From Candidatus Nitrospira kreftii (GTDB taxonomy: Bacteria > Nitrospirota > Nitrospiria > Nitrospirales > Nitrospiraceae): a stretch of DNA of 64,000 bases. The notes beneath the pieces were generated by a model. It saw nothing but the letters and a program-made list of their open reading frames with translations. It searched no databases and was not told where the DNA came from. The position numbers were made by a program, and so were the translations under genes. How positions within the stretch are numbered: the stretch's first letter is position 1; the number at the start of each line of letters is the position of its first letter. Below, piece after piece: positions 17,539 to 30,891 of this stretch. The stretch covers positions 682,001 through 746,000 of the forward strand of contig CP047423.1 of assembly GCA_014058405.1 (NCBI GenBank), in the 5' to 3' direction.

Positions 17539-18594
17539 ATGTCGCATCTCATGAGATCGTCACCTTTGGGTGTCAAGGTTGTCGCTAGACATGCAACAGT
17601 CCCGTTTGTTGTTGGACTTTTCCTAATCACGCTACCGCTTTCCATTCAATCGGCCCAGATCGAGCCGGATCGAGGATCTTGGCGTATGGCAGCTCCGATG
17701 CCGACGAAGCGGACGGAGGTAGCGACTGCGACGCTGGAGGGGAAAATCTGCGTGGTTGGTGGGTTTGAAAAGCCCAGTCTCGGCAATGTGCTGAATTTGG
17801 CGATCACGCCATCAGTCGAAGTGTATGATCCAACGGCTGACCGGTGGACGTCCAAAGCTTCAATGCCGGTCGGCTTGCACCATATCGGGATTGGTGTTGC
17901 AGGCGGACGATTATACGTGATTGGGGGATACAGCAAATCTGGTCTCGGCGTCTGGAATCCAGTGGCAACAGTCTATGCCTATGATCCAACTACGGATAGC
18001 TGGACTGAGCGCGCTCCGATGCCGACAGCGAGAGGCGCATTGTCTGTAACGGAGCACGACGGAAAGTTGTATGCCATCGGCGGGTATGATCGGAAAGCCA
18101 ACAATGCGCAGGTCGAAGTTTATGATCCTCTGCACAATGTCTGGACGACAGCTGCGCCAATCCCGACGCCTCGGGATCATCTTGCGGCGGCCACGATCGA
18201 CGGGAAGATTTATGCAATCGGCGGACGCCTAGATGGTGACTATTCTCGCAATCTCTCTGTGACAGAACGGTACGACCCTGTGAACGATCGCTGGACACGT
18301 GTCGCGGACTTGCCGACTGCGCGGAGCGGTATCACCGCTGCGGTTATTGAGGGAACGATCTACGTCATGGGTGGCGAGGGAGCTGCTGGTACGTTCAATG
18401 AGAACGAAGGCTATGATCCGGCGCACAATGTGTGGCAGCGTATGGCCCCAATGCCGACGGCGCGTCATGGTTTGGGATCAGCAGTCGTGCAGGGGCGGAT
18501 TTATGTGATCAGCGGCGGCCCGACGCCCGGCGGCTCCTTCAGCGATCTGAATGAAGTGTTTATCCCTCCAGGAACCAGTGTAAAGGCCGACTGA
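17539..18594 (+). CDS. Secreted Kelch-repeat protein
   Basis: 351 residues. A hydrophobic signal segment (VVGLFLITLPLSIQSAQ, about residues 22-40) is followed by about six Kelch blades. Each blade shows the pattern of a GG turn, a tyrosine, VYDPxxDxWT and APMPTAR (for example VEVYDPLHNVWTTAAPIPT). Six blades make a closed beta-propeller, usually a binding scaffold or, in some secreted proteins, a sialidase-like fold. There is no sign of catalytic residues. The TATAGAAT just upstream of the start is too close to the ATG to be a usual -10. It stands alone, convergent with the CPBP protease gene. Confidence 0.85.
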   Translation: MSHLMRSSPLGVKVVARHATVPFVVGLFLITLPLSIQSAQIEPDRGSWRMAAPMPTKRTEVATATLEGKICVVGGFEKPSLGNVLNLAITPSVEVYDPTADRWTSKASMPVGLHHIGIGVAGGRLYVIGGYSKSGLGVWNPVATVYAYDPTTDSWTERAPMPTARGALSVTEHDGKLYAIGGYDRKANNAQVEVYDPLHNVWTTAAPIPTPRDHLAAATIDGKIYAIGGRLDGDYSRNLSVTERYDPVNDRWTRVADLPTARSGITAAVIEGTIYVMGGEGAAGTFNENEGYDPAHNVWQRMAPMPTARHGLGSAVVQGRIYVISGGPTPGGSFSDLNEVFIPPGTSVKAD

Positions 18595-18720: not shown

Positions 18721-19320
18721 TTATCTGGAAAAGTTTAGAAAGGTGGCACCGCCGATGAGAAGAAAGTAACCGGTATTATAGAAGACATGCAGAATGATCG
18801 ACGGATACACAGATCCGAAGCGATCTCGGACAAAGCCGAAACAGAGGGAGGGGATGAGCACGAGCAAGGACCACGAGGTGGAATGGCTGGCCAGATGGGC
18901 TAATGTGAACGAAAGAGATGTCAGGAGGTTGGCGAGGGAAAGGCCATGCCATGTCTTCTGCCCCATGGATTGCAATAAATAACCCTGGAGGATGCCGCGG
19001 AACAGCAATTCTTCGCACAGAGGCTTCCAGAGCGCGACAGAGAAAAACGCCGCTGACCATATGGCATACAAAGGCAGTGGTTGAAATGCAAAGAACCCGA
19101 TCATGGCAAGCCATACAATCGGGCCAAGAGCGAGCAACAAGAGAAACAGAGAATTGCGATGAAAGGGACGGTTGTATTGAAGGCCCAGTAATGCCATTGC
19201 TTGTGCTGGACGGCTTAGTTTAGGGAGTACCCCAGAGGAAACATCCTGAACCGCGACCATGTGGTCAAGGTAAAGCTCCCGCCGTGCCGCCACTCCTCGC
19301 GTTCCAAAATTAAGTTTCAT
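18721..19320 (-). CDS. CPBP-family (CAAX/glutamic) intramembrane protease, probable sorting-signal processing enzyme
   Basis: 199-residue multi-pass membrane protein. The start at ATG 19320 overlaps the stop of the subtilase gene (ATGA); a longer in-frame reading to 19413 would run deep into that gene. The CPBP motifs are all present: EELLFRG (paired glutamates and arginine), the histidine in SFTLAH and HVFYNTGY with the last His/Asn pair. Some CPBP proteases process C-terminal sorting tails (for example the MrtJ enzymes of JDVT-CTERM systems, or MrtX). The coupled subtilase has just such a tail, so it is a likely substrate. That pairing is an inference from context. Confidence 0.85.
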   Translation of the reverse strand: MKLNFGTRGVAARRELYLDHMVAVQDVSSGVLPKLSRPAQAMALLGLQYNRPFHRNSLFLLLLALGPIVWLAMIGFFAFQPLPLYAIWSAAFFSVALWKPLCEELLFRGILQGYLLQSMGQKTWHGLSLANLLTSLSFTLAHLASHSTSWSLLVLIPSLCFGFVRDRFGSVYPSIILHVFYNTGYFLLIGGATFLNFSR

Positions 19321-21638
19321 CGGCGTCGCGCTCTCCACAACAGGACAGTCAGAGACATGAGTAACATGGCTGGTAACAATATGTCTCCAGTTCTGCCAGG
19401 AGCGATAGTGCAACCTCCTCCGACGTTATCGATGGGGGCTGGCGGGGGTGTCGCCATGTTGAAGGTGGCGGTGACAGTCGCATCTTGAGTGAGCGAGCAG
19501 GGAGCGGTTCCGCTACAATCTCCATTCCACCCTGTGAAGACAGACGCAGGATCGGGTGTTGCGGTGAGGTTTACAGTGCTACCTTGGGGAAACTGTCCAT
19601 CGCATGTCGCTCCGCAGTCAATTCCGGAAGAATTGGAGGTCACTGTGCCGGTTCCGGAACCTGCTTTGTTAACGGTAACGGTGAAATTTGTCACCACGCT
19701 GGCCAACGCCGCCCGGGCATTGATGCGCCCACCGGTCGAGACCTTTCCGCTCAAGGAAGCTTTCTTATCCACTGTGTTGAGGATTGCGTTCCTGAGTTGG
19801 GATACGGTGAGATTGGGATTAACCGATAGCAATAGGCCAGCGAGTCCCGCCACATGCGGAGTGGCCATCGAAGTACCGAGCAGAAACTGGTAATCCGTTG
19901 TTTGCGATGGCGGACCCGCCACGCAGGCGACCCGGACATCGTCTAAATACACACCGTCGAAGACCTGGCGCTCATCCGAGATAAATCGAAATCGAAACTG
20001 TGAATCAGCCATATCATCTGCGACATCGCCCCAGGTAACAGGGACAAATTGGTCGTTGCTATTTTCCGTGATTGTGCGAACGTGCTCCCAGTTGGCACCG
20101 CCGTCCCGTGATGTTTCCGTAAGCACTCCATCTATATCTTGCTCGGTTTGCAAGCGAACGCGGCTGTCGAGGCGGCACCCTCGCTGTCCCTTGGTAGTGA
20201 ATACGGGTCCGGTTGCAAAGGAATCGGTGCTGTTTTTATAGTTTTCGCCAGGGCTGTCGGTTAGGCTGATTGATTGGCTGAAGGATGCAGAATTGGTGAA
20301 CCCCCAGGTGCTATTGATTCCTCCGAAGACATAACCTAGCCCGGTTGGGTTTGAATCAAAGTCATGTGAAAGCACATTCCTAACATTCGAAGTGGGCCTC
20401 GTGCTGTTGATTCTGACCCCTGGTGCGGCCACGTGGACCGTAGTGGGCCCAAAATTTGAGAAAGTCGCCAATTGATCGTTCTGATCCGTTGCGGCAACCG
20501 TGATCAGGTTTCCCAGCGCGGGTTTCTGTTGGCCATCACACACGGAAGGCGCACTGAAATTTGCGGGGAAGCTGGGAATGTTGTCATTATCCGATCCCTC
20601 ATTTCCTGCCGCTGCAACAAACAGTACGCCTGCTGCATTCGCGGCACTCACCGCATCATAGAGGGCCAGGCTACAGTCAGGTCCGGCAAAACTCGCGTTG
20701 ATCACACGGGCACCATGAGCAACGGCGTAGTGGATCGCCTTGACAATGGCAGTGGTGGGTAAGGATCGATCCACTCCCCCTGCTTTCAGAGCCATTAGTC
20801 TTGCGGTCCACATAATACCGGTTACCCCAGTACCATTGTTCCCGGCTCCAGCGATGATTCCCGCCACATGAGTACCATGTCCAGGATTGCCTGCAGGATT
20901 GAGATCTATTGGGTCCATCGGCTCATGGTCGTCCGCGTAAAAATCCCATCCATACACATCGTCGACCAATCCGTTTCCATCATCATCAACACCATTTCCG
21001 GCAATTTCCCCCAGATTTTTCCAGATATTGGGGGCGAGGTCAGGATGATCATAGGCGATACCCGAGTCAATCACAGCAATAGCCACTTCGGAGCTTCCCG
21101 TGCTGATGTCCCAGGCTTCTGGAGCATCGATGTCGGCATCTGGCGCTCCCCCTATTCCGTTGACGGTTTGGCCAGTATTATGGAGACCCCATAACGTGTC
21201 AAACTGAGCATCGTTGGGAATGGTTTTTAGCCAGTAAAGATAGTTCGGTTCGGCATACTCAATGGCTGGATTACTTCGGTACTTCAAGACGGCTTCGTCG
21301 ACAGACATGGTCCCATCCAATTTGTACTGGTGGATCACCCTGCCATTGACAGAGAACGCTTTGATTTCGTGAGTATTACCATCTACATCAAGAGACTTCA
21401 TTCCTAACGAGGATGCCTCATCCTTGAACTTGACGAGCACTTCTCTCGGTACATACTTGCCCAGGTGGCGAGCATCCTGTGCTAGCGCTGCCATTCTGCT
21501 AGACACCTGTTTCTGCTCCGCATAAACCAAGTGATCCTTCAGCATGAATCCAGGTAAAGCGGCCACGATAGTGGCTCCAATCAGAATGGAGCCAGCTAAA
21601 TAGATTCTAATTCTCTTTATCCTACTTTTGCATTTCAT
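19317..21638 (-). CDS. Secreted S8 subtilisin-like protease with GGGC-type C-terminal sorting signal
   Basis: 773 residues from ATG 21638. Order: signal segment (YLAGSILIGATIVAALPG), propeptide (PREVLVKFKD to IEYAEPNYLYW, about residues 60-140), catalytic domain, bacterial beta-repeat, sorting tail. The triad is Asp191 (AVIDSGIAYDHPD), His254 (GHGTHVAG) and Ser590 (GTSMATPHVAG). The His-Ser interval of 336 residues is far longer than in subtilisin and holds an inserted beta-rich module (about residues 420-570). Near the end, GTGTVTSNSSGIDCGATC starts a repeat domain. The tail reads GGGCTIAPG, then a hydrophobic helix and RARRR, a layout used by protease- or sortase-processed C-terminal anchors. 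It overlaps both its upstream neighbour (17 bases) and the downstream CPBP protease (4 bases). Confidence 0.9.
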   Translation of the reverse strand: MKCKSRIKRIRIYLAGSILIGATIVAALPGFMLKDHLVYAEQKQVSSRMAALAQDARHLGKYVPREVLVKFKDEASSLGMKSLDVDGNTHEIKAFSVNGRVIHQYKLDGTMSVDEAVLKYRSNPAIEYAEPNYLYWLKTIPNDAQFDTLWGLHNTGQTVNGIGGAPDADIDAPEAWDISTGSSEVAIAVIDSGIAYDHPDLAPNIWKNLGEIAGNGVDDDGNGLVDDVYGWDFYADDHEPMDPIDLNPAGNPGHGTHVAGIIAGAGNNGTGVTGIMWTARLMALKAGGVDRSLPTTAIVKAIHYAVAHGARVINASFAGPDCSLALYDAVSAANAAGVLFVAAAGNEGSDNDNIPSFPANFSAPSVCDGQQKPALGNLITVAATDQNDQLATFSNFGPTTVHVAAPGVRINSTRPTSNVRNVLSHDFDSNPTGLGYVFGGINSTWGFTNSASFSQSISLTDSPGENYKNSTDSFATGPVFTTKGQRGCRLDSRVRLQTEQDIDGVLTETSRDGGANWEHVRTITENSNDQFVPVTWGDVADDMADSQFRFRFISDERQVFDGVYLDDVRVACVAGPPSQTTDYQFLLGTSMATPHVAGLAGLLLSVNPNLTVSQLRNAILNTVDKKASLSGKVSTGGRINARAALASVVTNFTVTVNKAGSGTGTVTSNSSGIDCGATCDGQFPQGSTVNLTATPDPASVFTGWNGDCSGTAPCSLTQDATVTATFNMATPPPAPIDNVGGGCTIAPGRTGDILLPAMLLMSLTVLLWRARRR

Positions 21639-22011
21639 ACTGATAATTGGGCTCTGCATACTCGATCTCCTGATATGAAATGAATTGGGTGATCGCGGAT
21701 TCAACCGACCGATCGTCTATGATTTTGACGTGATAGAGTCGTCCGCGTTGGAGTTCAGAAAGGACCTCAATCCGGTTCTCTTTCAGGATGGACGCGATCT
21801 TCTCTTGTGAAATTCCGTCCTTGAATTTGACTAATACTTCATGTGGGACGAATCGTGGTGCCTGGGGCTTTATAATGTGTTTAATGGCATGTGTCGGTGT
21901 GGCATTCTGATTGCCCGCGTCACAGGATGTGTAAATCCATACAGCCGACACAGATATGATGAGAGTGACAACCTGTGTCATTCGATGAGATAGGGCTGGC
22001 AAATCAGACAT
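21622..22011 (-). CDS. Free-standing subtilase propeptide-like (inhibitor I9-like) protein, possible lipoprotein
   Basis: 129 residues. An N-terminal hydrophobic segment (VVTLIISVSAVWIY) runs up to a cysteine (YTSC) that may be a weak lipobox. The mature part reads VPHEVLVKFKDGISQ, then IEYAEPNYQYE near the C-terminus. It is thus built like the propeptide region of the S8 protease encoded immediately downstream, but has no protease domain. Propeptides of this type act as foldases and inhibitors, so this protein may chaperone or inhibit the neighbouring protease in trans. The gene overlaps the protease start by 17 bases. It could also be a duplicated or truncated remnant of a second protease. 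Confidence 0.75.
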   Translation of the reverse strand: MSDLPALSHRMTQVVTLIISVSAVWIYTSCDAGNQNATPTHAIKHIIKPQAPRFVPHEVLVKFKDGISQEKIASILKENRIEVLSELQRGRLYHVKIIDDRSVESAITQFISYQEIEYAEPNYQYEMQK

Positions 22012-22507
22012 GGTGTTTCACCTGTGCAACGTGAATAAGCGCGCGAATCGAATCTCGGTGGCTAGCTATCAGAGGGCAGTTCATCAAGGGAATCCATCTG
22101 GCTGGGGTGGCTGCAGATGAGACAATTGCCTGGCCGAAGCCAAGCGCGAAGTGGGCGTTCTCAAGCTGCAATTCCCAGAGCGTACAATCACCAAAGTCAA
22201 ACATCACCTCCGCATGAGGAAATCGCGAGAGGTTCCGTTTTCTGACCTCGTGGTACGACGGCGCATCGAGACGAAAGTATCGCGCCTCTCCTTGAAGATT
22301 CATGCCTCTCAACGCGAGCGCATTTGTTCTGACGCTCGTCCGTTCCGTATCGTCAATAAGACCGCCGTTTTCACGTCTTCAGCCAGCCGACCAGGTTTGC
22401 TGAACATCCGCACTCGTTAATGCTGACGCCATCGTCAAGCTCACTTCCGACATGGACAAAAAGCCATCAGGCGCTTCGATAGATGCGTCAACACCATACC
22501 ATTCGGT
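22004..22507 (-). pseudogene. Decayed HugZ-like heme oxygenase (DUF2470 + split-barrel) gene
   Basis: One minus-strand frame from 22507 to the stop at 22004 reads as a HugZ-family protein in fragments. First comes a DUF2470-like end (YGVDASIEAPDGFLS, then LTSADVQQTW). An in-frame TGA follows. Then come NLQGEARYFRLD, RFPHAEVMFDFGDCTLWEL and HFALGFGQA, which match the C-terminal part of the split-barrel domain. An earlier in-frame TGA lies just before 22507. The FMN-domain N-terminal half expected between the parts is missing, so there has been an internal deletion as well as stops. A 102-residue reading from TTG 22312 could still be translated. Recognition is by motif pattern only. Confidence 0.6.
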
Positions 22508-23503: not shown

Positions 23504-25747
23504 ATGAGCCAGCTGATACTATTGTCAGTAGTCGTCGTTCTTCTTGTCACGTCATCGATCCGGCAGGCAGATGCGTCTCTTTCACACATTCCCACGGCGT
23601 TTTCGGAAGACGGGCGATTCCTACTGATCCAGATGGACGAACTTGTGCTCTGGGATCTCGAAACCAAAGCGCTTCTCGCCAAGGTACCACTCACCTCCTG
23701 TCACCAAGTCGCCTTGCTGAAACATGATGGCTGGGTGCTATGTGTGAAGCACGACGTCGTGATTTACGATTGGAAGAATCAAGAGTCCGTGGCGACTGTT
23801 CCACAGGAATCGCGCCAGCCCTATAGCTTGCTCGCCTATTCGAATCAGACTGATCGGATGGTGCTCCGACACGGCAATGAGGCGGTGTCGGTCTGGCAAG
23901 TCGGAAAGAAGTTGGTACCGCTCAAGCATATTGGGTTAGATGCCAAGGCAGAGACCCAGTCGGTCATTGCGTCACCTGATGCGAAGTTGCTGGCGATCGC
24001 GCAAGGTCGTGCGATTCGTCTGCACGACCTTACCGGAACGACGATTCGTGATGTGAGCATCAAAGATGGAAAGCCACTCGACCTCCTCTTCGCACCGGAC
24101 GGCGCAACGTTGGCCGCCACCATCGGGAATACGATTCTGTTCATCGATACGGTGGAGGCATCGATACGTGGACGAGCTGGGCTGACAATCGCGGAAGGAG
24201 CTCGTGAACACCTCACCCCTCGTCGGTTTTCTCATGACAGCCACCGACTGGTGGCAAGTGATGGAGAAAGGAGGTATGGGCTGTTCGACACTGATACAGG
24301 CACGGTCGTGTCCGTGACCGAATTTACCTATGCTGATCAAGAGCACGGGGTGCAGGCCCCTACGCATCTCACTGCCGCCGATATTTCAGACGACGCCGAG
24401 TATGTGGTGGGACAAGCAGAACATCCCACTACGTTGCAGATCTGGGACTTGCGCACCGGCGCCATGCTGCCGGATCTCTGTGGCCATGATTGTCGGAATA
24501 TCGGACCGCATGTCTCATTGCTCAAATGGTCGCCTAATGGATTGAAGATTGTGGTGGGGATAGAAGGGGGTCTCAATCCGGATGTGGACGGGAAAATATC
24601 AGTCTGGGACATGCAGACTCGATCTCCTGAGCTGGTACTGGATCCTGGTCAATCTCAAGCAAAAGTGTTGGCCAATCGACCCACCACGCCAGTGACAGGT
24701 GTTGAATTGTCCGTGAAGCCTGTCGTGCTGTCTCCTGCCGAAGCTGGTCCGGCCTTTGTGCATGCGCACGCGTTGCGTGCGCTTGTGACGTCCCCCAGCG
24801 CCAATCTGCTTGTCACGAGCGCTGATGACGGATTGCTGAAAGTTTGGGAACCGAGTCAGGGAGTCTTTCTGCGGCAGCTGTCTTTGTCTGCACCTGCAAG
24901 CGCATTGGCGTTCAGCTCCGATGGCGCCCTTCTGGCGGCCGGTACAACTCAAGGAGAGGTACGGCTGTGGGACACGCAGAGCTGGCGGGAGTTCCCCTCC
25001 TACGCAACCCGACAGGGACAGATTAACGCACTGCAGTTTCTCACTGGCAAGCGATTTCTCGTCATTGCCGGCACGCAACCGAAGGTTCTCGTGGTGGACG
25101 TGGTGACCCGGATGATTGTCAAAGAGCTGGTGCATACTGGCTTCTCCCTGGCCTGCGAGCCGAAGGGCTGTGTCAGAACACGAACGACACAGGGCGACGT
25201 GGTGGAGACACTGAGTTTGTTGGATGGGAGCCCCTTTTTGCTCACGACGTCACGAACCGGACGTGTCGTTTGGAATATTGGAACATGGAACGAGGTCGAA
25301 GAGCCGGTCGGTCTGCCGGACGTTTGGTCCGGACTCGGATGGAAACGGCCCTTTGTGGCGACGACGATGCGCGCTCGTGATCCAAACGCATTCACGCTTG
25401 CCCTTTGGGACCTCAAACGCAACACGGTCTTGGCGAGTTTAGATACCTTCACTAAACGTGATACTGAGGCTGTCGAGAAGGGACCGACCGTGGCATTAGG
25501 CACATCAATGGCCGTCGATCCGTTGCATCGATGGGTTGTCACGCGAGTCGGAGAACACCTCGCCGTGTGGGATCTTTCTGCTCGTGCAAAGAAAAAGACC
25601 TTTCACGTGAACACCCCGTATCATCTCCATTGGACGAGCGACGGACAATATCTCGTCGTCGGCACACTCGACCGGAAAGTGCTCGTCTGGTCTGCAGAGA
25701 CAATGGAGCCTGTGCACTACCTGCGAGATCCTTCCCTTGCCCATTAG
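23504..25747 (+). CDS. Secreted WD40-repeat beta-propeller protein
   Basis: 747 residues. A signal peptide (LILLSVVVVLLVTSSIRQADA) is followed by repeated blades ending in W or hydrophobic-D pairs: VLWDLETKAL, LQIWDLRTGAM, VSVWQVGKK, LKVWEPSQG, VRLWDTQSW, LAVWDLSAR and VLVWSAETM. The number and spacing suggest two propellers side by side (about 10-14 blades). No enzymatic domain is seen, so a scaffold or binding role in the periplasm is likely. An inverted-repeat element starts directly after its stop codon and may end its transcript. Confidence 0.8.
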   Translation: MSQLILLSVVVVLLVTSSIRQADASLSHIPTAFSEDGRFLLIQMDELVLWDLETKALLAKVPLTSCHQVALLKHDGWVLCVKHDVVIYDWKNQESVATVPQESRQPYSLLAYSNQTDRMVLRHGNEAVSVWQVGKKLVPLKHIGLDAKAETQSVIASPDAKLLAIAQGRAIRLHDLTGTTIRDVSIKDGKPLDLLFAPDGATLAATIGNTILFIDTVEASIRGRAGLTIAEGAREHLTPRRFSHDSHRLVASDGERRYGLFDTDTGTVVSVTEFTYADQEHGVQAPTHLTAADISDDAEYVVGQAEHPTTLQIWDLRTGAMLPDLCGHDCRNIGPHVSLLKWSPNGLKIVVGIEGGLNPDVDGKISVWDMQTRSPELVLDPGQSQAKVLANRPTTPVTGVELSVKPVVLSPAEAGPAFVHAHALRALVTSPSANLLVTSADDGLLKVWEPSQGVFLRQLSLSAPASALAFSSDGALLAAGTTQGEVRLWDTQSWREFPSYATRQGQINALQFLTGKRFLVIAGTQPKVLVVDVVTRMIVKELVHTGFSLACEPKGCVRTRTTQGDVVETLSLLDGSPFLLTTSRTGRVVWNIGTWNEVEEPVGLPDVWSGLGWKRPFVATTMRARDPNAFTLALWDLKRNTVLASLDTFTKRDTEAVEKGPTVALGTSMAVDPLHRWVVTRVGEHLAVWDLSARAKKKTFHVNTPYHLHWTSDGQYLVVGTLDRKVLVWSAETMEPVHYLRDPSLAH

Positions 25748-26067: not shown

Positions 26068-28164
26068 ATGGGAAAAAAGAAAGACTCCACACCAGTTACC
26101 GAATCGAAATCTGCCGCTCCTCGAGCCAATCCTGAACCAGCCGCAAAGAAACCAGCCGCCGCCAAACCGGCAGAGCGGGTCACTGCGGTCGAGATGGGGG
26201 CGCGCCAGCGGGAAATTTCCGTTTCTGAATTTTTCACGAAGAACCGGCATCTGCTCGGATTCGACAATCCGCGCAAGGCGCTGCTGACCTGCGTCAAAGA
26301 GGCGGTCGATAACGCGCTCGATGCCTGTGAAGAAGCCGGGATTCTTCCGGATGTAACGGTCCAGTTAGAAGTGGTGATGAACGGAGAACCGGTGGCGCCA
26401 AGCCAGGCGAATCGGTTTCGCGTCACAGTCACCGACAATGGACCGGGCATCGTTCGCCAGCAGATCCCACGAATTTTTGCCAAGCTGCTCTATGGGTCCA
26501 AGTTCCATCGCCTGCGGATGAGCCGCGGTCAACAGGGGATCGGCATCTCAGCTGCCGGAATGTATGGGCAACTGACGACCGGAAAGCCGGTGAAAATTAT
26601 TTCGCGTATCGGTCCCAAAGCCGCCGCGCATTTCTTCGAAGTGCAAATCGACACGAAGAAGAACGAGCCGCTGGTTCACGAGAACAAACAGATCGACTGG
26701 GAGCAGCCGCGAGGCACTCAAGTTACACTGGAAGTCGAAGGGAAGTATCAAAAAGGTCGTGCGTCGGTCGATGAATGGCTCGAGCAAACCTCCATTGCCA
26801 ATCCACATGTCAGATTGATCTACCGGACTCCTGAAGGGGAGACGAAAGAGTATCCTCGGACCTACCACGAGCTGCCGCCTCAACCACGCGAAATCAAACC
26901 GCACCCCTACGGGATCGAGTTCGGCATGCTTCTCAAGATGTTGCAGGACACAAAGAGCCATACGCTTTCCGGGTTTCTCGCCGGTGATTTTTGTCGGGTG
27001 TCTCCCCAGTTGGCGGATGAGATCTGCAAAGCGGCGAAGGTTTCACCTGAGGCCAAGCCTCGCGAGTTGAAGGGGCCGGTCGCGGAGGCACTCTACAAGA
27101 CATTGCAAGAGACGAAGATCATGGCGCCGCCGACCAATTGTATTTCTCCGATCGGCGAGAAGGCGATTCTTGCAGGGCTCTATAAGCAGATCAAAGGTGA
27201 ATTCTACACAGCGGTCAGTCGGCCACCGGCGGTCTATCGGGGTAACCCCTTCATCATTGAGGCCGGCCTCGCATACGGAAACAGACCACAGGACCAAAAT
27301 AAACCGCAGCAGCCGACTCTGCCAAAAGCCGAAGGGGAACACGAGGAGCAAGATTCCGAGCTTGCTCGGGTGATTCGCTACGCAAATCGAGTGCCGTTGC
27401 TGTATCAACAATCGGCCTGCTCCACGTTCAAGGCCGTCCTGAGCACGAGCTGGAAAAACTATGGCTTATCGCAGTCGCGTGGAGCCCTTCCGGGTGGACC
27501 GATGGTGATCTTCGTCCACATGGCGTCGGTCTGGGTACCGTTTACCAGTGAATCCAAGGAAGCGATCGCCGATTATGACGAGATTCAAAAGGAAATCACC
27601 CTGGCGCTGCGCGAGTGTGGCAGGCGGCTGGGACTCTTCGTGCGCCGGCGCGAACGGGCGGCCAGTGAATTTCGGCGGCGGAATATTTTTGAATTGTATA
27701 TAGAGGAAGTCGTCGAGGCCTGCAACCGACTCAAGGGAGGGACGCTTCCGAAGCAAAAGCTGAAAGAGCAGCTCCAAAAGATTGCGTCGTCTCGCACAGG
27801 CGGAATGAAGACCGACGAAGCGCTCGGGAAGACCGGGGCTGGTCCTGAAGGCCTCCCCCATTCGATCATCGTGACAGCAGATGGAGTGGAGGGTGAAACT
27901 GCGTTAGCCACCCAGGTTGAGTCTAGTCAGGGAGTTGTGGCGCCAGCAGCAGAGCCGGATCTTCTTGGTGACTCATTGCCGTCGGACAAGCCTGCTTCAA
28001 AAGAGAAAACCACGAAGTTGGGTCGAGCCAACCATCCAGTAAAGAAGGCATCCGCGAAATCAGACCAGGTCGCACTCGTTGCCGGCGAATCTAAAACAAA
28101 GAAGAAATCAGGTGGCAAGTCTGCCAGGTCTGCGAAGACCGCGGCCTCAAAGAAATCCAAATAG
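26068..28164 (+). CDS. top6B: DNA topoisomerase VI subunit B
   Basis: ATPase subunit of the type IIB topoisomerase that relaxes and decatenates DNA by double-strand passage. It has 698 residues. A lysine/alanine/proline-rich N-terminal extension of about 40 residues comes first. The GHKL ATPase fold follows: N-box EAVDNALDA, DNGPGI, and SRGQQGIGISAAGMYG, then TTGKP. The H2TH and transducer regions follow (MLLKMLQDTKSHTLSGFL and GGPMVIFVHMASVWVPF, where the transducer lysine is usually near). The last 120 residues form a lysine/serine-rich tail, unusual for archaeal homologues. It lies six bases upstream of subunit A. Topoisomerase VI is typical of archaea and plants and patchy in bacteria. 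Confidence 0.93.
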   Translation: MGKKKDSTPVTESKSAAPRANPEPAAKKPAAAKPAERVTAVEMGARQREISVSEFFTKNRHLLGFDNPRKALLTCVKEAVDNALDACEEAGILPDVTVQLEVVMNGEPVAPSQANRFRVTVTDNGPGIVRQQIPRIFAKLLYGSKFHRLRMSRGQQGIGISAAGMYGQLTTGKPVKIISRIGPKAAAHFFEVQIDTKKNEPLVHENKQIDWEQPRGTQVTLEVEGKYQKGRASVDEWLEQTSIANPHVRLIYRTPEGETKEYPRTYHELPPQPREIKPHPYGIEFGMLLKMLQDTKSHTLSGFLAGDFCRVSPQLADEICKAAKVSPEAKPRELKGPVAEALYKTLQETKIMAPPTNCISPIGEKAILAGLYKQIKGEFYTAVSRPPAVYRGNPFIIEAGLAYGNRPQDQNKPQQPTLPKAEGEHEEQDSELARVIRYANRVPLLYQQSACSTFKAVLSTSWKNYGLSQSRGALPGGPMVIFVHMASVWVPFTSESKEAIADYDEIQKEITLALRECGRRLGLFVRRRERAASEFRRRNIFELYIEEVVEACNRLKGGTLPKQKLKEQLQKIASSRTGGMKTDEALGKTGAGPEGLPHSIIVTADGVEGETALATQVESSQGVVAPAAEPDLLGDSLPSDKPASKEKTTKLGRANHPVKKASAKSDQVALVAGESKTKKKSGGKSARSAKTAASKKSK

Positions 28165-28170
28165 GACACC

Positions 28171-29274
28171 ATGACGACCAAGACAAAGAAAACGACCCTG
28201 GTCGAGAAGAAGTTGATCGGTCTGGCTGATATTGTGATCCAGTCGGCCGAACGATCAAAGGACCCCACGTTTCAGATTCCAATCCGCGCCCTCTCCAACG
28301 TGTCCTTCAATGAACGGAAGGGCCTCATCGAGATGGGCGCCAAGAAGCAGGAGCGGTCGTTTTTCAACGTCGGTATGGCGAAGAAATTCATGCAGACGGT
28401 GCTCGTGGCGGATGCGCTCTCCGAACTGCAGCGTGCCGAGTTGACCACCTCGCTTCGAGAAATTTATTATCGCACAAAACATACGATCAAAGACTCGCAC
28501 GAGAACACCTTCGACACGCAGGATGAATCTGATCCCGTGATCGAGGATCTCGAAGTCTCCCTCGCTGCGCTCCGGGAAGAGCTGCATGTGCGCGCGGAGA
28601 ACAGCGGGAGCATCGTCGGGCCTGTGGTCTTTGGAGACGATGGCGATCGGGTTGATTGCTCGAAACTAGGGAAAGGCGGGTACTCGGTCCCGTCGATCGT
28701 GGAGCCGGAGTATCTGGAGATCCGACGCTGTACCGCGGACTTTGTCCTGCTCGTTGAAAAAGGGACCCAGTGGAACCGGCTCTCGGAAGACAAGTTCTGG
28801 CGGCGCTACAACTGTGTGCTACTGACGGGCAATGGTCAGCCACCGCGAGGCGTCCGTCGTTTGGCACGGCGGCTCCATGAAGAATGCAAGCTGCCGGTGT
28901 ATGTCTTGGTCGATAATGATCCCTGGGGGTACTATATCTATTCCGTTATCAAACAGGGGTCCATCAATCTGGCCTTTGAAAGCCAGCGGATGGCGATTCC
29001 AAAAGCCAAATTCATGGGCTTATCCAGCGCCGACCCTGAGCGGTACGAGTTGCCGCGCAATGTCGGGATCAAGCTGAACGAGAAAGACATCGCTCGTGCG
29101 AAAGAGCTGATGAACTATACGTGGTTCAAGAAGCCGGCCTGGCAGGCGGAGATCAAGCGCATGTTGACCAGCGGATTGAAGTACGAACTCGATTCGCTGG
29201 CGAATAAGGATTTCCAGTACCTGACGAAGAAGTATCTGCCGAGGAAGCTCAAAGAAAAAGACTGGCTGGACTAA
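28171..29274 (+). CDS. top6A: DNA topoisomerase VI subunit A (Spo11-like)
   Basis: DNA-cleaving subunit of topoisomerase VI, 367 residues. The winged-helix CAP domain contains REIYYRTKHT, where one of the tyrosines at 99-100 is the nucleophile. The Toprim domain shows the glutamate in FVLLVEKGTQWNRL and the acidic pair in YVLVDNDPWGYYIYS. A basic N-terminus (TTKTKKTTLVEKK) precedes the fold. Gene order B-A with a six-base gap is as in archaea. All catalytic residues expected of an active enzyme are visible. The following gene encodes a helicase on the same strand. Confidence 0.93.
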   Translation: MTTKTKKTTLVEKKLIGLADIVIQSAERSKDPTFQIPIRALSNVSFNERKGLIEMGAKKQERSFFNVGMAKKFMQTVLVADALSELQRAELTTSLREIYYRTKHTIKDSHENTFDTQDESDPVIEDLEVSLAALREELHVRAENSGSIVGPVVFGDDGDRVDCSKLGKGGYSVPSIVEPEYLEIRRCTADFVLLVEKGTQWNRLSEDKFWRRYNCVLLTGNGQPPRGVRRLARRLHEECKLPVYVLVDNDPWGYYIYSVIKQGSINLAFESQRMAIPKAKFMGLSSADPERYELPRNVGIKLNEKDIARAKELMNYTWFKKPAWQAEIKRMLTSGLKYELDSLANKDFQYLTKKYLPRKLKEKDWLD

Positions 29275-29331
29275 CCTGCCTCCTACTCTGTGCCATCATT
29301 GAGCCACCAAGTTCTCGCTCGCGAACCGGCT

Positions 29332-30891
29332 ATGAAGACATTGCCTGCCTGGACGGCGCCCCTTCGTGACTGGCAACGTCGTGCCTTGGCGTCGGTCTGC
29401 ACCCATGCATCCCAGGATTTTCTGGCGATGGCGACGCCGGCTGCGGGGAAGACACGCTTTGCGTTGCGCATCGCGCATGAATTCATGACGAATCGAACTG
29501 CGGTTCGAGTGCTGGTCGTCTGCCCGACGAACCACCTCCGCACGCAATGGTCGGATGCGGCAGGGAAGCTGGGCTTACAGCTTGATCCGTCTCTAACCAA
29601 CGAACAGGCATCTGAAGCGGCTGACTATCATGGCGCCGTGGTCACCTATCAGCAAGTGTGTCTGGCCCCTGCGATCTTTCAGCGGGTCTGCAAGAGTAAG
29701 AAAACCCTGCTCATCTTCGACGAGCTGCACCATGCCGGTGACGGCAAAAACTGGGGGAAAGCGCTACGCACGGCGTTTGAACCGGCGGTGTTTCGATTGA
29801 TCCTGTCCGGCACACCGTTTCGTTCAGACAATAATCCCATCCCCTTTATTCGATATGAGAATGGAGAAAGCCGGGCGGATTTCGCCTATGGGTATACCGA
29901 TGCCATTCGCGACAATGTCTGCCGACCCATTGTCTTCCCAAGCTACGAAGGCGAGCTGAGCTGGCTGTCTGAGGGCCGCGAGCATCAGGCCACATTTGAA
30001 GACGGGTTGACGTTCAATCGGCAGCGAGAACGGTTAAAGACGGCGCTCCTCCAAGAAACCTGGCTTGGGCCGGTGATCACCGATGCCCATGCGCAACTCA
30101 CGCGTCTTCGCCAGCAGGAACAGCCGGATGCCGGGGGACTCATCGTCTGCATGGATCAGGAACATGCTCGGTGGGTTGCGGATCTTGTTGGTCGTATTGC
30201 CGGTACGAAAGCGGCTGTCGCTGTGTCGGATGATCCCGCCGCTTCGCACACAATTGAGGAGTTCGCCGGACACAAAAAACAGCAGTGGCTGGTGGCGGTG
30301 AACATGGTGAGCGAAGGCGTCGATATTCCGCGCCTTCGCGTCGGTGTCTACGGCACGAACGTTATCACGGAAATGTATTTCCGGCAGGTGGTTGGGCGAT
30401 TTGTTCGGATGCAGGACGGTGTGCCCAAGCCGCAACGCGCCTGGCTCTACCTACCGAAAGATCCGATCCTGGTGCACTATGCCAAGCAGATCAAGGCGGA
30501 GCGTGATCATGTCTTGGAGGATATCATGCCGGCCGGACAACGAGACTTGTTTGGCCGTGTCACCGTCTCCACCAATGAATACATGCCGCTGATGGCCGTG
30601 GCCAGGATGGATAGCCTGATCGGCGAAGACGAAGCGAGAGCGGAGGGCGATGCCGTGGCAGTTGCTGAACCAGCGGTCTCACTCCACGAGCAAAAACTAG
30701 AGCTGCGGGATCTCCATCGGCTGCTGGTCGGCACAGTCGCCAGAAACAGTGGAATCGATCATCGAAAACTCAATGCAGAATTGATTGCACGAACCGGGAG
30801 CCGTGTCGATCAAGCAACAGTCGAACAGCTACGAAAGCGCATTCAATTGCTGGAGCGGTGGAAAGAGCGAGGCTATGACGGAAAGCGATGA
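29332..30891 (+). CDS. SF2 DEAD/DEAH-type helicase linked to topoisomerase VI
   Basis: About 519 residues from ATG 29332; a GTG at 29290 would add 14 residues and neither has a clear ribosome site. Motif Q/I region: LRDWQRRALASV and the Walker A ATPAAGKTRFALRIA. Motif II is LLIFDELHHAGDG, motif III LSGTPFR, motif V VNMVSEGVDIPRLRVG and motif VI RQVVGRFVRM. This is the SSL2/type III Res-like (RadD-like) layout. The C-terminal 120 residues are helical and charged and are not assigned. It follows subunit A by 57 bases and is probably in the same operon, which suggests a role in DNA repair or chromosome handling with the topoisomerase. Confidence 0.85.
   Translation: MKTLPAWTAPLRDWQRRALASVCTHASQDFLAMATPAAGKTRFALRIAHEFMTNRTAVRVLVVCPTNHLRTQWSDAAGKLGLQLDPSLTNEQASEAADYHGAVVTYQQVCLAPAIFQRVCKSKKTLLIFDELHHAGDGKNWGKALRTAFEPAVFRLILSGTPFRSDNNPIPFIRYENGESRADFAYGYTDAIRDNVCRPIVFPSYEGELSWLSEGREHQATFEDGLTFNRQRERLKTALLQETWLGPVITDAHAQLTRLRQQEQPDAGGLIVCMDQEHARWVADLVGRIAGTKAAVAVSDDPAASHTIEEFAGHKKQQWLVAVNMVSEGVDIPRLRVGVYGTNVITEMYFRQVVGRFVRMQDGVPKPQRAWLYLPKDPILVHYAKQIKAERDHVLEDIMPAGQRDLFGRVTVSTNEYMPLMAVARMDSLIGEDEARAEGDAVAVAEPAVSLHEQKLELRDLHRLLVGTVARNSGIDHRKLNAELIARTGSRVDQATVEQLRKRIQLLERWKERGYDGKR

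Follow-up and report, generated by a model that had tools for sequence, protein, structure and literature searches.

In beta- and gammaproteobacteria, MrtJ and a single JDVT-CTERM protein form a two-gene neighbourhood (Haft 2024, as described in the consulted sections of PMC11980579). The same sections report that myxosortase MrtX cleaves MYXO-CTERM tails in M. xanthus, that the cleavage needs Cys, that MrtX also cuts in E. coli, and that it serves dozens of substrates, 35 of them in M. xanthus. According to the model given there for M. xanthus, the substrate is exported, anchored by its helix, lipidated on Cys (by Lgt, as proposed), cleaved beyond Cys and delivered to the surface by the type II secretion system (T2SS). 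The surface protease VesB is given as a client of rhombosortase (PMC11980579).

The locus analyzed here lies in the window, a 64,000-nucleotide stretch of the Candidatus Nitrospira kreftii genome, and its subtilase-protease pair is a further member of the MrtJ/JDVT-CTERM kind, in Nitrospira. It shares with the described pairs the matches to both curated models (NF033192 and NF033191), the adjacency of the two genes and the single tail in the genome, but differs from them, as far as those sections describe them, in its occurrence in Nitrospirota, in the prodomain gene preceding the pair, and in having relatives that carry different substrates or combine one enzyme with several tails. MrtX/MYXO-CTERM likewise combines a CPBP enzyme with a C-terminal tail that contains Cys, a helix and a basic end, but MrtX is one enzyme for dozens of substrates, and the window MrtJ reached 42.5 bits with the MrtX model (cut-off 180). 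The scores with the other sorting-enzyme models were also far below cut-off, including that of the related CPBP sorting enzyme MrtS of Synerg-CTERM (47.4 bits, cut-off 130), MrtC (50.7, cut-off 195) and MrtP (54.5, cut-off 250). Rhombosortase/GlyGly-CTERM also joins an intramembrane protease to a tripartite C-terminal tail, whereas rhombosortase is a serine rhomboid of another family, and we know of no invariant Cys in GlyGly-CTERM tails. New here are the conserved third gene, encoding a prodomain with an invariant Cys, the genus-wide survey of tails and MrtJ, and the finding that one substrate per enzyme is not a rule. No description of MrtJ in Nitrospira, of the prodomain gene or of cross-class sharing was found in the literature searched; Haft 2024, which was outside that search, may already note these points.

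Organization of the locus

The locus consists of three closely spaced minus-strand genes with overlaps at both junctions, and is flanked by a convergent gene:

21622-22011, minus strand: stand-alone subtilase prodomain, 129 aa (Pfam Fervidolysin_NPro-like, conserved Cys, AlphaFold/Foldseek)
19317-21638, minus strand: subtilase of family S8 (773 aa), comprising a prodomain, the S8 catalytic domain, a Flg_new_2 repeat and the sorting tail (Pfam, NCBIfam, translation)
19323-19421, minus strand: JDVT-CTERM tail, with Cys743 at 19410-19412 (NF033191)
19317-19320, minus strand: ATGA, shared by the stop of the subtilase and the start of MrtJ (sequence; alternative GTG start at 19338)
18721-19320, minus strand: MrtJ of 199 aa, a glutamic intramembrane protease of the CPBP family (NF033192, PF02517, motif residues)
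17539-18594, plus strand: convergent Kelch-repeat gene, a flank outside the system (Kelch_1, 198 bits)

The initial annotation had described a coupling of two genes, in which the tail-bearing subtilase overlaps the next gene by ATGA. Indeed, the MrtJ start ATG overlaps the subtilase stop, and an ATGA overlap is found at 24 of the 26 window-type tail-gene stops compared. The adjacency thus stands, but the genes number three, the upstream one at 21622-22011 having been missed. The 3' end of this prodomain gene overlaps the subtilase start, for which an alternative at 21659 is conserved and possible. The Kelch flank marks the syntenic site in relatives, including those in which mrtJ is deleted. 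The host genome is one contig of 4,125,728 bases (4.13 Mb).

Other genes in the window were also observed. A short minus-strand ORF at 22004-22312 is homologous to part of a gene of 195-217 aa conserved at the same place in relatives, and may be a shortened or frame-broken copy. Further on, a 747-aa protein that appears WD40-like by eye (23504-25747, plus strand) had no NCBIfam match at E <= 1e-5. Topoisomerase VI subunit B is encoded on the plus strand in the 26068-29274 region (NF003218, 670 bits, cut-off 274), followed by a 367-aa ORF resembling subunit A, and an ORF at 29290-30891 looks helicase-like by eye. Such a topoisomerase is of archaeal type, here in a bacterium.

The sorting tail and the MrtJ enzyme

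Pfam assigned to the subtilase its own prodomain, an S8 domain (Peptidase_S8, 187.8 bits) and one Flg_new_2 (InlB B-like) repeat. In its last 36 residues, NVGGGCTIAPGRTGDILLPAMLLMSLTVLLWRARRR, GGGC is followed by a hydrophobic stretch and then by a basic end, which is the JDVT-CTERM layout of Cys, hydrophobic helix and basic end. The tail had been named a JDVT-CTERM-like sorting signal and the next gene a CPBP glutamic protease of MrtJ type, with an HMM search proposed as the check. NF033191 matched residues 740-772 of 773 with 35.8 bits (curated cut-off 27), indicating that the tail is a JDVT-CTERM member and that the earlier naming was right. Among 30 tails picked from relatives, with the window tail included, GGC is invariant (30/30) and the spacing C-x8-D-x3-P is kept in at least 90%. 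Searching the host genome for further tails, as also proposed, gave one JDVT-CTERM match above the cut-off. A sensitive profile of the 30 tails scored the window tail at 74.6 bits and had no other match in the genome better than E 4.6. A second tail was rejected, since the runner-up in the JDVT-CTERM search reached 15.4 bits and the profile added none.

The downstream gene matched NF033192 with 100.3 bits (curated cut-off 75) and the Rce1-like Pfam family PF02517 with 61.7 bits (cut-off 22.4), in agreement with its proposed identity. CPBP enzymes carry the motifs EExxxR, H and HxxxN, all of which are present in MrtJ (E103-E104-x-x-F-R108, H142 and H178-x-x-x-N182), and these residues are invariant in alignment A3 and nearly invariant in a 52-row alignment. 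Judged by their sequences, both genes are members of their families. MrtJ had one match above the cut-off in the whole genome, the next reaching 44 bits, and the genome encodes three Rce1-like (PF02517) proteins, namely MrtJ and two others. The AlphaFold model of MrtJ is only moderate (mean pLDDT 73, N-terminus below 50) and its best PDB fold match, Rce1 (4cad), is weak (E 1.2), which we count against the interpretation preferred below. Searching PDB sequences with the MrtJ profile found no matching chain.

The stand-alone prodomain

The product of the upstream gene matched Fervidolysin_NPro-like with 47.6 bits (cut-off 21). Its N-terminal hydrophobic stretch ends in a lipobox-like Cys (VWIYTSC-D), and a Cys occupies this place in 30 of 30 homologous prodomain ORFs, mostly as S-C-D, with Y, S, F or L, and thus not always L, at position -3. 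The distant homologue in locus L123 carries LTAC, a classic lipobox. The AlphaFold model (mean pLDDT 67.5, core blocks 83-91) matched the subtilisin BPN' prosegment in Foldseek (1spb_P, TMt 0.68, E 0.015) as well as the furin/PC1 prodomain complex and fervidolysin; no match reached E 0.001, and the top row was an unrelated aldolase. When the prodomain profile was run against PDB sequences, only weak, apparently unrelated chains came up (best E 0.0095). The protein has its fold and Pfam family in common with the subtilisin propeptide and fervidolysin prodomain (PF22148), but it is encoded by a separate gene and has a lipobox-like Cys, while the window subtilase keeps its own prodomain. Nothing resembling a stand-alone prodomain was found among the titles and abstract openings of the propeptide papers listed.

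In relatives in which mrtJ is deleted (L108-L112), the prodomain gene is kept beside the subtilase, and it therefore goes with the protease and not with the sorting step. The stand-alone prodomain is probably a lipoprotein too, and would assist folding of the protease or keep it in check close to the membrane, as a chaperone or an inhibitor. A prodomain-like ORF before the L094 subtilase is a possible parallel only, for which Pfam gave no match. Two genomes with prodomain and subtilase without tail or MrtJ (G027 and G073) were set aside as neither supporting nor refuting, since both contigs end inside the subtilase.

Co-occurrence of tails and MrtJ

Among 79 genomes of the genus, tails above the cut-off were found in 33 (44 tails) and MrtJ in 35 (43 matches), and all 33 tail genomes have MrtJ (Fisher p 3e-20, a statistic that ignores relatedness). 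An MrtJ match lies directly downstream of 37 of the 44 tails. The initial annotation had named many genomes with the protease gene and no tail as a finding that would speak against its proposal. In the genus such genomes are not many, namely 2 of 35, both with shortened MrtJ ORFs (G061, 113 aa; G091, 141 aa, with the subtilase gone). Neither model had a match above its cut-off in 14 control genomes, indicating that the window pair is more than chance.

Sampling of the phylum (395 genomes) found MrtJ in 36 genomes, spread over 11 of 169 genera. Ten of these 36 lie outside the genus, of which six have a tail above the cut-off and two a weaker tail only; in the other two (G103 and G112) no tail was detected at E <= 0.05, which argues against a strict rule linking tail and MrtJ. 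In a distant branch of the phylum, the loci L118, L120 and L121 (G121, G103 and G112, respectively) have MrtJ above the cut-off with no adjoining tail-bearing gene. A search of the named contig collection found five loci, four of them of window type, with a single-sequence query, beyond which an alignment query would reach further; a plasmid search gave one 72-base match.

Substrate classes in relatives

The window type, with prodomain, subtilase and MrtJ, occurs in 28 of the 33 tail genomes. Other classes comprise a subtilase that has several Flg_new_2 repeats but lacks a separate prodomain (four genomes: G022, G025, G026 and G030), a glucose/sorbosone dehydrogenase (GSDH)-PKD protein with MrtJ (L091, L096, L098 and L102), and a subtilase with PKD domains (L094, L122 and L124). 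The MrtJ tree tracks the partner class, needing 7 label changes where shuffled labels need 21.6 on average; it leaves out L082, L093 and L124, whose N-termini are disturbed or shortened, and ORFs of less than 140 aa. The proposal of a one-substrate system thus holds for the host genome, with one tail and one MrtJ, but fails as a rule, since relatives have two or three tails, tail loci lacking MrtJ and other substrates.

A further class was seen in two genomes of another family (L126 and L127; other families of the same class), where a TSP3-repeat protein with a JDVT-like tail is followed by an OmpA-like TSP3 protein (the OmpA-like assignment was tested in L126 alone) and then by MrtJ. The OmpA-like protein of L126 reached 192 bits with the TraB exchange-protein model, below the cut-off of 700, and the arrangement recalls the TraA/TraB pair of myxobacteria. 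G408 has two MrtJ copies. The one in L124 lies next to an intact tail, but its N-terminus is disturbed and it reads VDELLFR where EELLFR is expected; the other, intact MrtJ is that of L123.

Proposed mechanism and alternatives

We consider it highly probable, by analogy to myxosortase, that the three genes form an MrtJ/JDVT-CTERM operon that is self-contained and serves surface anchoring. An N-terminal signal would direct export of the subtilase, whose C-terminal helix would then keep it in the inner membrane while the arginine-rich end stays on the cytoplasmic side. A general enzyme would lipidate Cys743 of GGGC, with Lgt as the candidate (259 bits in the host genome, cut-off 118.9), and MrtJ, made from the overlapping next gene, would cut just after Cys inside the membrane. 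A type II secretion system would probably carry the lipid-anchored protease to the outer surface, with the separate prodomain, probably a lipoprotein, helping it to fold or restraining it near the membrane. The GspD-like T2SS secretin of the host genome scored 290 bits, below the cut-off of 351; T2SS was rejected as specific support, since similar matches occur in 77 of the 79 genus genomes regardless of MrtJ and are thus no specific evidence for the export route.

A hydrophobic helix with a basic end would suffice for anchoring, and the tail might be a membrane anchor only, with the protease staying uncut in the inner membrane and MrtJ doing something else. We regard this as improbable, because it leaves unexplained the invariant GGC, the C-x8-D-x3-P spacing and the occurrence of tails solely with MrtJ. 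Even less credible is that another CPBP enzyme of the host processes the tail and MrtJ is incidental: of the two further PF02517 proteins, one does match MrtJ at 44 bits, but the relative with such a score (about 40-45 bits) is found throughout the genus whether tails are present or not, whereas it is the MrtJ above the cut-off that tracks them.

More weight attaches to the idea that any MrtJ in the cell acts in trans on every JDVT-type tail, whatever the substrate class, so that adjacency reflects co-inheritance rather than specificity. This is fairly probable in our judgement, and it extends the surface-anchoring interpretation rather than contradicting it. Eight genomes have window-type tails together with an intact GSDH-class MrtJ (G001, G004, G012, G018, G031, G072, G085 and G100), where an MrtJ counts as intact if its ORF is 160 aa or longer and contains both EExxFR and HxxYN. 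An intact window-type MrtJ is absent from seven of these eight, against 0 of 20 window-type genomes without an intact GSDH-class MrtJ (Fisher p 7e-6). The seven include G001 only through a 148-aa window-type ORF with an N-terminal deletion; counting it as intact gives 6/8 (p 7e-5), and merging the four close relatives G012, G018, G031 and G085 gives 3 or 4 of 5 against 0/20 (p 0.004 or 0.0004). In G012, G018, G031 and G085, mrtJ is reduced to its first ~10 codons behind an intact tail, the convergent Kelch gene being retained ~110-120 bases further on in G012, G018 and G085, and the G031 contig ending ~1.5 kb beyond the remnant. G004 has scraps of the window-type mrtJ only and G072 two broken copies; G010, G016 and G100 likewise contain decayed, redundant copies of the window type, and relics of both mrtJ ends persist in G016. 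Moreover, the dehydrogenase gene is gone from beside the GSDH-class MrtJ in G018, G031 and G085 while that MrtJ is intact, so that the enzyme is left with no known tail but the window-type one, which lies at another place in the genome. Loss of mrtJ in cis with the tail kept thus suggests, as the simplest reading, cross-class processing in trans. Against this, independent events are few, the last cis copy having been lost about three times; pairwise dN/dS among G012, G018, G031 and G085 (0.34-0.64) is moderately low and no strong proof of constraint; the MrtJ of the two classes are only ~42% identical; and several of these genomes are fragmented assemblies, in which an unseen extra MrtJ is possible.

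Significance

As a minimal system, an operon of one enzyme and one substrate is suited to finding the recognition signal of the enzyme, for which the residues common to the tails (GGC and C-x8-D-x3-P) are candidates, and the enzyme that adds the lipid. In addition, the paired prodomain suggests how the cell might restrain a surface subtilase, and the deletions that have occurred naturally among relatives lead to the prediction that an MrtJ can cut the tail of another class. Tentatively, and with more doubt than for the sharing itself, the locus may be a swappable three-part surface-protease module, in which one membrane would tether both the prodomain, as a lipoprotein, and the subtilase, lipidated at its C-terminus. 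MrtJ enzymes of ~42% identity would be interchangeable among the tails of unrelated proteins, such that a genome with two modules loses its redundant MrtJ and the remaining enzyme becomes a shared sortase. If this is true, one-substrate pairs would be the starting material for many-substrate sorting systems like that of myxosortase.
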